The notes below the pieces were generated by a model, which was not told the origin of the DNA, did no database searches, and saw only the letters and a list, made by a program, of their open reading frames with translations. Positions 7,280-13,009 of a DNA stretch of 32,308 nucleotides are shown here, piece by piece. A program made the translations under genes and the position numbers. Source of the stretch: Prevotellamassilia sp. (GTDB taxonomy: Bacteria > Bacteroidota > Bacteroidia > Bacteroidales > Bacteroidaceae); assembly GCA_018383375.1 (NCBI GenBank), contig JAHAWW010000142.1, positions 1 through 32,308 on the forward strand, given 5' to 3'. Position 1 is the stretch's first letter. Every line of letters begins with the position of its first letter.

Positions 7280-9334
7280 TTATTTGATAAGCGCGATGCT
7301 GCGTTTCACAAAGTTGCTCAGGGCTTCGCCGCGCAACAGACCATTTTGCAGCAAGGCAAGGTCGATGAGTTGCGACACGACAGGCTGGGCCTCGGCATAA
7401 TCGGCAAACACCTTGTTGCGACCGGCTTGTTGCTGCTCGATGTCGGCATTACACTGGCGAAGGTCTTCACGCTCTTGGTCGGTAATCTCTTCAGCCTTGC
7501 GGTCTTTTTGGGTCTGCTCGATGGCCGCACGGCGTGCATTGAGTCCCTTGAGCTGGTCGTCGAACGGCTTGAGAGCCTCGGCGGCTTCGGCTTTGAAGCC
7601 CTCGAGAAGCTTAGCCACGAGCGGATGGTCGGCGTTGAGCACGAGGTTGTACATATCAGGCATCTCGCCATAGAAGCCCATACCGGGTTGCAGACGGCTC
7701 ATTTCTTTCATGCGGCGCATGTATTCACTTTGTGTGATGACCACGGGAGCCGACTCCGCACCGAGACGCTCTGTTTCAACGTGGAAGTTGGTCTTTTCGG
7801 CCTTGGGCAGACGGGCTGTGAAGATGGCCGAAAGCGCTTCACGGTCAGTCTCTTCGACAGGCTGCGTGGCAGTCTCGTCTTTGCGGATGAGTCTATCCAC
7901 CACATCGCCGTCGACACGGCTGAAAGTAGATTTCTCCAGCTTCTGCTCGAGCATACCAACGAGCGGAGAGTCGAGCTGTCCGTCGAGCAAGAGCACGCTG
8001 TAGCCTTTGTCTTTGGCTGCCTGTATGTAGCTGTATTGCGCTTCAGGGTCGGAGGCATAGAGATAGACGACGTTGCCGTCTTTGTCGGTCTGCGTGGCCT
8101 TGATGAGGTCGCGATATTCGTCGTAGGTGAAATATTTGCCGTCGACGTCTTTGAACAACGCGTATTTGGAGGCACGGTCGTAGAAGTCCGGCTCTGAGAG
8201 CATACCATAGTGGATGAAGAGTTTGAGGTCGTCCCATTTGGCCTCAAAGTCTTGTCGGTCGGTCTTGAAGATAGATTGAAGACGGTCGCTCACCTTCTTG
8301 GTGATATAGCCCGAAATCTTCTTGACGTTGGCATCGCTCTGCAGGTAGCTGCGGCTGACATTGAGGGGAATGTCGGGCGAGTCGATAACGCCGTGCAGGA
8401 GCGTAAGAAACTCAGGCACAATATTTTCCACCTCGTCTGTCACGAACACCTGATTGCAATAGAGCTGGATTTTGTTGCGATGGATTTCGATGTTGTTTTT
8501 GATGCGAGGGAAGTAGAGCACACCGGTGAGGTGGAAGGGATAGTCCACGTTGAGGTGTATCCAAAAGAGGGGCTCGTCGGCCATAGGATAGAGGTCGCGA
8601 TAAAACTTCTTATAGTCCTCGTCGTTGAGTGTAGACGGTTGGCGTGTCCAGAGCGGATTGGTTTCGCCTATGATATTGTCTTCGTCGGTCTCTTGCTGCT
8701 TGCCGTCTTTCCATTCGGTCTTTTTGCCAAAAGCAATGGGCACGGGCAGGAAGCGGCAATATTTCTTGAGCAGACCTTCGATTTTTGTGTTTTCAAGAAA
8801 CTCTTTGCAGTCTTCGGCAATGTGGAGGACGATGTCGGTGCCTCGGTCGGCCTTGTCGATGTTTTCCATGTCGTAGGCCGGACTGCCATCACACGTCCAG
8901 CACACGGCCTGGGCGTCGTCGCGGTAGCTGCGCGTGCGTATTTCGACCTTGTCGGCCACCATAAACGACGAGTAAAAACCGAGACCGAAGTGGCCGATGA
9001 TGGCATTGGCGTCGTCTTTATATTTTTCAAGAAAATCGGTGGCACCCGAGAAGGCTATCTGATTGATATACTTATCGATTTCTTCGTCTGTCATACCAAT
9101 GCCGCGGTCTGAGATGGTGAGCGTACCGGCATCTTTGTCGATGGCCACTCGGATGGTGAGGTCGCCGAGTTCGCCCTTGAAGTCACCCTTCATGGCATAG
9201 GTTTTGAGCTTCTGGGTGGCGTCTACGGCATTCGAGACAAGTTCGCGGAGGAAGATTTCGTGGTCGCTGTAGAGGAATTTCTTAATGACCGGAAAAATAT
9301 TCTCGGTCGTGATACCAATAGATCCTTTTGACAT
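7280..9334 (-). CDS. htpG: molecular chaperone HtpG (Hsp90)
   Basis: MSKGSIGITTENIFPVIKKFLYSDHEIFLRELVSNAVDATQKLK..., DRGIGMT, GHFGLGFYSSFMV; start trimmed to MSKG at 9334. Confidence 0.97.
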   Translation of the reverse strand: MSKGSIGITTENIFPVIKKFLYSDHEIFLRELVSNAVDATQKLKTYAMKGDFKGELGDLTIRVAIDKDAGTLTISDRGIGMTDEEIDKYINQIAFSGATDFLEKYKDDANAIIGHFGLGFYSSFMVADKVEIRTRSYRDDAQAVCWTCDGSPAYDMENIDKADRGTDIVLHIAEDCKEFLENTKIEGLLKKYCRFLPVPIAFGKKTEWKDGKQQETDEDNIIGETNPLWTRQPSTLNDEDYKKFYRDLYPMADEPLFWIHLNVDYPFHLTGVLYFPRIKNNIEIHRNKIQLYCNQVFVTDEVENIVPEFLTLLHGVIDSPDIPLNVSRSYLQSDANVKKISGYITKKVSDRLQSIFKTDRQDFEAKWDDLKLFIHYGMLSEPDFYDRASKYALFKDVDGKYFTYDEYRDLIKATQTDKDGNVVYLYASDPEAQYSYIQAAKDKGYSVLLLDGQLDSPLVGMLEQKLEKSTFSRVDGDVVDRLIRKDETATQPVEETDREALSAIFTARLPKAEKTNFHVETERLGAESAPVVITQSEYMRRMKEMSRLQPGMGFYGEMPDMYNLVLNADHPLVAKLLEGFKAEAAEALKPFDDQLKGLNARRAAIEQTQKDRKAEEITDQEREDLRQCNADIEQQQAGRNKVFADYAEAQPVVSQLIDLALLQNGLLRGEALSNFVKRSIALIK

Positions 9335-9372: not shown

Positions 9373-9396
9373 TAATTAATGCAAAATGCGTGCCAA
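9373..9396 (-). promoter_or_regulatory. sigma-54-type -24/-12 promoter of htpG
   Basis: Minus strand TTGGCACGCATTTTGCATTAATTA; exact TGGCACG-N4-TTGCA with 10 bp between GG and GC; about 40 bp upstream of the htpG start. Confidence 0.7.
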
Positions 9397-9439: not shown

Positions 9440-9471
9440 GTTGCCCAATTGCCCGATTTTTAGTATTTTTG
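9440..9471 (+). promoter_or_regulatory. Bacteroidales housekeeping promoter (-33 TTG / -7 TAnnTTTG) for the ABC-F gene
   Basis: GTTG-N20-TATTTTTG upstream of 9529. Confidence 0.55.
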
Positions 9472-9489: not shown

Positions 9490-11148
<1,659 letters not shown>

Positions 11149-11172
11149 TTGGCACGCTATTTGCACTAATTA
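11149..11172 (+). promoter_or_regulatory. sigma-54-type -24/-12 promoter of grpE-dnaJ
   Basis: TTGGCACGCTATTTGCACTAATTA; exact TGGCACG-N4-TTGCA, 21/24 identical to the htpG element. Confidence 0.7.
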
Positions 11173-11203: not shown

Positions 11204-11809
11204 ATGACAAACGACAAAGAAAAAGAAAATCAAAACAAACTGAGCGAAGAGGCCACCGCCGAAAAACAGGCCCCAACGCCCGATACAGAGACTCCCAACC
11301 AAGAGAATGCTGAGGAGACAGAAGCCCCCGCCGAACCGGAGGCCGAAAAAACCGACGCAGAAAAACTCGAAGAGGCTGAAGCCGAAATTGCTTCGCTCAA
11401 AGACCAACTGCTCCGCAAGGCTGCCGAGTTTGAAAACTTCCGCAAGCGCACCATCAAGGAGAAGACCGAGCTCATCCTCAACGGCGGACGCCGCGTGATT
11501 GAGGCTCTCCTTCCCGTGCTCGACGACCTCGAACGAGCCCAAGACAACATGGGTAAGGCCACCGACGTGGAAGCGCTCAAAGAGGGCGTGGACCTCATCC
11601 TCACTAAACTCGACAAAACGCTCAGCGGTCAGGGACTGAAAAAAATAGACACCACCGATGCACTCTTCGACACCGACTTCCACGAGGCCATCGCTATGGT
11701 GCCTGCCGCTGACGACAGCCAAAAAGGCAAAGTCATCGACTGTGTGCAAAGCGGCTATATGCTCGGCGAAACGGTCATCCGTCACGCCAAGGTAGCCGTG
11801 GGACAATGA
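11204..11809 (+). CDS. grpE: nucleotide exchange factor GrpE
   Basis: LRKAAEFENFRKRTIKEKTELILNGGRRVIEALLPVLDDLERA; precedes dnaJ. Confidence 0.95.
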   Translation: MTNDKEKENQNKLSEEATAEKQAPTPDTETPNQENAEETEAPAEPEAEKTDAEKLEEAEAEIASLKDQLLRKAAEFENFRKRTIKEKTELILNGGRRVIEALLPVLDDLERAQDNMGKATDVEALKEGVDLILTKLDKTLSGQGLKKIDTTDALFDTDFHEAIAMVPAADDSQKGKVIDCVQSGYMLGETVIRHAKVAVGQ

Positions 11810-11860: not shown

Positions 11861-13009
11861 ATGGCTGAAGAAAAAGACTATTACAAGATACTCGGCGTGG
11901 AAAAGACGGCCTCGGCCGACGAGATTAAACGCGCCTACAAGAAGGTGGCCATCAAATACCACCCCGACCGCAACCCCGGCAATAAAGAGGCCGAAGAGAA
12001 ATTCAAGGAGGCCGCCGAAGCCTATGAAGTATTGCGCGACCCCGAAAAGCGTCAGCGCTACGACCAGTTTGGCGCAGCCGGCGTGAATGGTGCAGGCGGA
12101 TTTGGCGGCTTTGGTGCCGGAGGCATGGACATCAACGACATCTTCTCGCACTTCGGTGACATCTTCGGCGATATGGGCTTCGGTTTCGGAGGCGGTAGCC
12201 GACGCGGCGGCCGACCCAAATTCCGCGGCGGCGACCTACGAATGAAAATCCGCCTCAACCTCCAAGAGGTGGCGAGTGGCGTGACCAAGAAATTCAAAGT
12301 GCACAAAAACGTGACGTGCCCCGAGTGTCAAGGCTCAGGTTGCGAAAAAGGTCACGACCCCGAAACCTGCCCCAACTGCAACGGCACGGGCTATGTGCTC
12401 CGCAGCCAGCGCAGCATGTTTGGCATGATGCAGAGCCAAGAGCCCTGCCCCAACTGTCACGGTGAAGGCGTCATCGTGAAACACAAATGCGCCCACTGTC
12501 ACGGCGAAGGCATCATCGAGGGTGACGAAATTGTCGAAATCACCATTCCCGCCGGCGTCGAATCCGGTATGGTGCTCAATGTCCGCGGCAAAGGCCATGC
12601 CGCCCGTCGTGGCGGTGTGCCCGGCGACATTCAGGTGCTCATTGATGAGGAGCCCAATAAGGACTTCATCCGCGACGGTAGTGACCTCATCTACAACCTG
12701 CTGCTCACCGTGCCTCAAGCGTGTCTGGGCGACTCGGTAGAGATACCCACCATCGACGGCAAGGCCCGCATCAAAATCACTCCCGGCACCCAGCCTGGCA
12801 CAGCCCTGCGTCTGCGTGGCAAGGGTCTGCCCGATGTCAATGGATATGGTAAAGGCGACATCGTGGTCAACATCAGCATCTACATCCCCGAGACGCTGAA
12901 CAGTCAAGACCGCAAGGCGATGGAACAACTCGCCCAAAGCGACCACATCCGTCCCGACCAAAAGGTCAAGGAAAGCATCTTCCGCAAATTCCGCAACTAT
13001 TTCAGCTGA
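11861..13009 (+). CDS. dnaJ: molecular chaperone DnaJ
   Basis: J domain [37 protein letters not shown]-rich linker, four CxxCxGxG-like zinc motifs. Confidence 0.97.

Follow-up and report, generated by a model that had tools for sequence, protein, structure and literature searches.

A probable sigma-54 promoter of htpG and a candidate activator of the chaperone regulon in Bacteroidota

Chaperone control without sigma-32 or HrcA is poorly defined in gut and marine Bacteroidota, and one locus of a Prevotella-like gut bacterium (Bacteroidales) poses the problem directly: what is a -24/-12 element of the sigma-54 type doing upstream of the Hsp90 gene htpG? Here, we follow this element through the window (the whole stretch of DNA that was analysed, 32,308 nucleotides, contig C174 of a 2.2 Mb draft assembly with 355 contigs and 89% completeness), through the rest of the genome and through related genomes. 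With a probability that we put at about 0.9, the element is a functional promoter from which RpoN polymerase transcribes htpG, and a member of an inherited, Bacteroidota-wide sigma-54 chaperone regulon (dnaK, grpE-dnaJ, htpG, groES-groEL and others) that replaces the sigma-32 and HrcA/CIRCE schemes. Six lines of evidence lead to this reading: the motif itself, the rarity of exact sites, their conservation at four chaperone genes, the presence of rpoN, the lack of an HrcA match or of an RpoH match at family level, and a single enhancer-binding protein. The question of how these chaperones are controlled can now be narrowed to one gene and one DNA site.

The htpG element and the sigma-54 machinery

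The sequence TTGGCACGCATTTTGCA lies on the minus strand upstream of htpG (9380-9396) with GG-N10-GC spacing, and within the longer stretch TTGGCACGCATTTTGCATTAATTA (minus strand, 9396-9373) all fixed positions of TGGCACG-N4-TTGCW are matched exactly at 9380-9395. GG and GC stand 10 bp apart in consensus flanks, the -24/-12 arrangement of a sigma-54-dependent promoter, and the htpG ATG (9332-9334) is 45 bp from the end of the -12 element. The first-pass annotation had described an exact RpoN consensus with this spacing at htpG and a near-identical element at grpE; both descriptions are confirmed, the grpE element TGGCACGCTATTTGCA (11150-11165, plus strand) being an exact match in its own right (Table 1). 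The dnaJ gene, 51 bp beyond grpE, is probably co-transcribed with it. Between htpG and grpE lies a gene for an ABC-F type ATPase, which is outside the sigma-54 chaperone regulon; its housekeeping-type promoter, which lies no more than about 50 bp from the sigma-54 promoter of htpG, provides an internal contrast.

Table 1. Features of the htpG-grpE region, in window coordinates
Feature	Position	Strand	Basis
htpG sigma-54 promoter with A+T-rich downstream flank	9373..9396	-	sequence; conserved at htpG orthologs
-24 element of htpG promoter, TTGGCAC	9390-9396	-	
-12 element of htpG promoter, TTGCA (its GC at 9381-9382)	9380-9384	-	
htpG, Hsp90 family chaperone, 684 aa	7280..9334	-	Pfam HSP90, E=1.2e-49
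Housekeeping-type -33/-7 promoter of divergent ABC-F gene, TTG-N20-TATTTTTG	9441..9471	+	scan
ABC-F type ATPase gene, between htpG and grpE	9532..11148	+	Pfam ABC_tran, ABC_tran_Xtn
grpE-dnaJ sigma-54 promoter, TTGGCACGCTATTTGCA	11149..11165	+	pattern scan, conservation
grpE	11204..11809	+	Pfam GrpE, E=3.3e-44
dnaJ	11861..13009	+	Pfam DnaJ domains

Only four exact matches to the pattern exist in the 2.2 Mb genome, at htpG, grpE-dnaJ, dnaK and a gene of the Bax1-I family; all four sites precede a gene, and three of these genes head core chaperone operons. The groES gene has a site with one mismatch (TTGGCACGGTTTTGGCA, with TGGC in place of TTGC), so that sigma-54 elements stand at dnaK, grpE, groES and htpG in a single genome. 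Scanning the genome with one mismatch allowed gave 27 matches, while the reversed-pattern control gave 36, a background level that adds no further members, and only the exact class is therefore informative genome-wide. The fourth exact site precedes the gene of a Bax1-I family membrane protein on another contig (L003:1501-1516, contig C332); among the exact sites of 37 genus genomes, no other was recognised at a gene of this type.

The machinery for reading such promoters is present. The genome carries rpoN (contig C47), as do 58 of 61 genomes overall, and its product (L312:1448-2923) matches the core-binding and DNA-binding families; among the family matches listed at E up to 0.001, none is to the N-terminal activator-interacting (region I) family. 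A search for the sigma-54 activator domain returns one strong protein (L030:1156-2397, PF00158, E=8.9e-65) and three weak hits that are probably other AAA+ ATPases. The RpoH (sigma-32) and HrcA/CIRCE systems of heat-shock control act on the same target genes as those considered here but differ in promoter and regulator, and we rejected both as explanations: HrcA was found in none of 27 genomes and no CIRCE element lies in the window, while in 27 genomes no bona fide RpoH rises above the family cut-off, the matches below it being probably the primary sigma factor.

Conservation of the element and its place among known systems

We scored the element in 36 relatives from the genus and in 24 genomes that represent other families of the order, taking at most 300 bp in front of htpG, grpE, dnaK and groES wherever the gene was found, using 12 positions, a reversed pattern as control, orthologs picked by similarity and start codons taken from protein matches; since the genomes are related the counts are not independent, drafts are among the genomes, and the shuffle expectations ignore relatedness. 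Within the genus, at least 11 of the 12 positions are matched at htpG in 25/30 genomes, at grpE in 21/33, at dnaK in 27/27 and at groES in 24/31, and the reversed control never scores above 10; about 0.001 hits at this level would be expected per 300 bp of shuffled sequence. A good element is missing (score 9 or lower) from htpG in four of the 30 genomes. Scores of at least 10 extend to the other families (htpG 9/22, grpE 10/22, dnaK 13/21, groES 12/20), where the reversed control reaches that level 0, 0, 1 and 0 times, respectively, and where the -12 element is weaker, drifting often to TTGA or else to TTGT.

The exact form TTGGCAC-N5-TTGCW occurs at 115 sites in 37 genus genomes (our own included), and 47 of these lie at htpG, grpE, dnaK or groES. 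Further exact sites precede genes for Hsp20, Clp ATPases, SecA, trigger factor and thioredoxin, and also genes for a neutral zinc peptidase, LolA, RsfS, Dxr and DUF3467, a set that looks like protein quality control together with envelope traffic. Some of the 68 exact sites away from the four chaperone genes fall inside reading frames and are probably due to chance. The peptidase gene (PF04298) has a recurrent upstream sigma-54 site in the genus (L045, L052, L060, L356, L370), with the family confirmed for L045 and assigned by sequence similarity for the others. Predicted secreted type I phosphodiesterase/nucleotide pyrophosphatase genes likewise have sigma-54-like sites upstream, with no palindrome of the kind described below, in several genus genomes (L026, L341, L368). 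One genome, G031, contains four identical copies of TTGGCACAAGTTTTGCT (L041, L343, L345, L348), mostly with only short reading frames downstream, which are possibly part of a repeated element.

Short degenerate patterns do arise by chance, as the background level of one-mismatch sites in this genome illustrates, and the htpG sequence might in principle resemble a sigma-54 promoter and have no function. We consider this highly improbable, as it is already contradicted by the placement of all four exact sites before genes, three of them chaperone operons, and by ortholog conservation in many genomes with matched controls. It is also improbable, if less extremely so, that htpG has a genuine but minor sigma-54 element and is transcribed mainly from a housekeeping -33/-7 promoter. 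A need for basal expression is usual among chaperones, and genes with two promoters are widespread in general; both would suit such an arrangement. However, scanning for TTG-N19-21-TAnnTTTG, which would miss weaker housekeeping promoters, detects the promoter of the ABC-F gene at 9441-9471 but none in sense orientation upstream of htpG, and in the genus the same pattern is found at htpG in 1/30 genomes, at grpE in 0/33, at dnaK in 0/27 and at groES in 0/31.

A sigma-54 promoter at htpG is not new in kind, since chaperones under sigma-54 control are on record for Bacteroidota. Start sites of a sigma-54 type (SM4), with -24/-12 elements, have been mapped in Flavobacterium psychrophilum, a member of another order of the phylum, at groES-groEL, lon, dnaK, grpE-dnaJ, htpG, skp and clpB, and thus at the same four core chaperone operons as in our genome (PMC9723704). 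That study left the activators unassigned, its searched text reports no upstream palindrome, and the lptE-linked regulator discussed below appears in it only as a gene behind another promoter type, SM5. In the aRpoNDB predictions, GroEL, GroES, GrpE, DnaJ and DnaK are enriched in Bacteroidia and in further classes, and HSP90 (COG0326) is enriched in Bacteroidia; these regulons are matrix predictions only, with no assignment of activators to targets or of enhancer sites in the parts consulted, and reference 80, cited for B. thetaiotaomicron grpE and groES, appears not to match the statement it accompanies (PMC12316311). The assignment of an activator, its gene neighbourhood and the palindrome appear to be new: the open-access literature searched yielded no prior report of them in Bacteroidota.

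Against this background, the suggestion in the first-pass annotation that an RpoN chaperone regulon lies behind the htpG and grpE elements is very likely right. The annotation had made it depend on an rpoN gene and on recurrence of the motif at htpG in close relatives, and both were found; it had also pointed to a genome scan, to enhancer-binding protein genes and to dnaK and groES, which proved to yield the four exact sites, one strong protein and a shared element, respectively. Its remark that an RpoN-driven Hsp90 would be unusual stands in comparison with Proteobacteria and Firmicutes and falls within Bacteroidota (PMC9723704, PMC12316311), and the regulon, which it had suggested for this lineage, looks like the ordinary chaperone control of the phylum and no speciality of one lineage.

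An enhancer-binding protein linked to lptE

The one strong activator-domain protein of this genome consists of an AAA+ domain and a Fis-type helix-turn-helix with no N-terminal sensor domain, an architecture shared by five orthologs. Its GAFTGA loop is present (GSFTGA in several relatives), and the linker between its domains, about 100 residues long, includes a conserved EREILYK-LFDM-DVNELK stretch. The recognition helix, SERTLYRKxK, is invariant among 16 aligned orthologs, as would be expected if the DNA site were the same throughout. Close matches to this protein occur in 59 of 61 genomes. Of the 37 genus genomes, 26 have no other match, and one of these, G004, is a single contig scored 99% complete; in nine genus genomes there are further matches, fragments among them. 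Where a genome encodes a single enhancer-binding protein, all of its active sigma-54 promoters should rely on that protein. F. psychrophilum encodes three activator-domain proteins (PMC9723704), and the one-activator logic is thus not applicable there.

The gene neighbourhood links this protein to the chaperones. In seven other families of Bacteroidales (L299-L305) the gene order is activator, lptE, a third gene (TPR-like in our own genome), secG and groES, and groEL follows next in the six loci that are long enough, L303 ending at groES. The activator-lptE-secG-groES-groEL neighbourhood is also found in many named Flavobacteriia, in a Dyadobacter and in a Saprospiraceae record (L385-L423), and the coordinates of F. 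psychrophilum reveal the same proximity, with groES starting at 867211 and the regulator-lptE pair at 870544 (PMC9723704). In our own genome (L306) the activator-lptE pair is kept and groESL is on another contig. Upstream of the activator gene we find no consistent sigma-54 site or palindrome that would indicate autoregulation.

From its domains, its neighbours and its frequent status as the sole candidate, we infer that the lptE-linked protein is the activator of the chaperone promoters. It resembles the sensorless enhancer-binding proteins of the PspF type, which likewise have the AAA+ sigma-54 interaction domain right at the N terminus and a Fis-type helix-turn-helix, but it adjoins lptE, secG and groESL rather than pspA, and its predicted target is a chaperone regulon. 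PspF is controlled in trans, and the lack of a sensor domain makes control in trans likely for the lptE-linked protein as well; a free chaperone or an envelope signal is a candidate input.

A palindrome upstream of chaperone promoters

Many chaperone promoters have a palindrome with the consensus cTGnCA-N3-TGnCAg 20-84 bp upstream. An unsupervised motif search upstream of the promoters of the other families returned atcTGACAaatTGTCAgat, with an estimated 96% of sequences having a site, and a similar motif ranks lower in the genus set. Exact copies of TGnCA-N3-TGnCA occur in the genus at 15/27 dnaK and 8/30 groES promoters, against 0.04 and 0.07 in shuffles, whereas nothing above chance is found at htpG and grpE of the genus and no exact copy lies in the window; outside the genus, exact copies occur at all four genes, htpG and grpE of other families included. 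Our own genome has TGCCAATTTGTCA at dnaK, 43 bp from the promoter, and a copy with one mismatch, TGCCTTTTTGTCA, at groES, 52 bp away. Distances from the palindrome centre to the GG of the -24 element (within 100 bp) fall mainly at about 20, 30-33, 36-46, 51-55 and 76-84 bp, and the Rayleigh statistic peaks at a period of 10.5-10.75 bp (n*R^2 of about 9, a value inflated by related sequences), roughly the helical phase. Motif discovery in the genus also gave further long palindromes (for example GtTTatCaACactGTtGatAAaC), which were set aside as probably conserved coding sequence of upstream genes; they did not turn up in the order set.

We infer from this distribution that the palindrome at dnaK and groES is bound by the lptE-linked activator. 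Fis-type helix-turn-helix proteins bind palindromes, and the invariant recognition helix of this protein fits such a site. Ownership by another regulator, for example RprY, is unlikely but deserves serious weight. RprY is of the OmpR type, and OmpR-type regulators usually bind direct repeats; the palindrome also precedes htpG and grpE in other families, and its roughly helical spacing from the -24 element speaks for the activator. On the side of RprY, the protein of Porphyromonas gingivalis binds the promoters of groES, clpB and dnaK, where it reportedly acts as a repressor, and does not bind that of htpG (PMC3646045), which parallels the genus palindrome, likewise found at dnaK and groES and absent at htpG. 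Some palindromes are moreover centred only 20 bp from the -24 element, closer than classical enhancer sites, which counts against the activator; a repressor could also act from there. A different objection is that the true activator is absent from the assembly and that the lptE-linked protein serves other genes, such as lptE itself. A second activator could indeed be missing from an 89% complete, 355-contig assembly, and the nine genus genomes with more than one match, fragments among them, leave some room for this idea. It is nonetheless quite unlikely, as the lptE-linked protein stands alone in most genus genomes, the 99% complete single contig among them, and its gene adjoins groES-groEL in other families and classes.

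Returning to the lptE-linked protein as activator, we propose that sigma-54 polymerase waits at the chaperone promoters as a closed complex, which the activator, positioned at the palindrome where one is present, would open by ATP hydrolysis. Enhancer-binding activators can work without a recognisable enhancer site, and the genus promoters of htpG and grpE, which show no palindrome, may be reached by the protein from solution or through a site that is weak or far away. Lacking a sensor, it would be regulated in trans, with RprY as a possible second layer. More speculatively, and with a likelihood we place slightly short of even, this single sensorless protein, ancestrally beside groES-groEL, may be the master activator of a sigma-54 heat-shock and proteostasis regulon throughout Bacteroidota. 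It would bind the phased palindrome where promoters are strongest, and either a free chaperone or the state of lipopolysaccharide export would keep it inactive in trans.

At secondary promoters of the genus site set (Clp, trigger factor, thioredoxin, LolA and others) the palindromes are mostly absent. Searched across the phylum, the combined pattern of palindrome and promoter matched in 13 of 199 genomes, the reversed control in none; by their translations, dnaK accounts for nine of the matches, and an Hsp20 gene and secA for one each.
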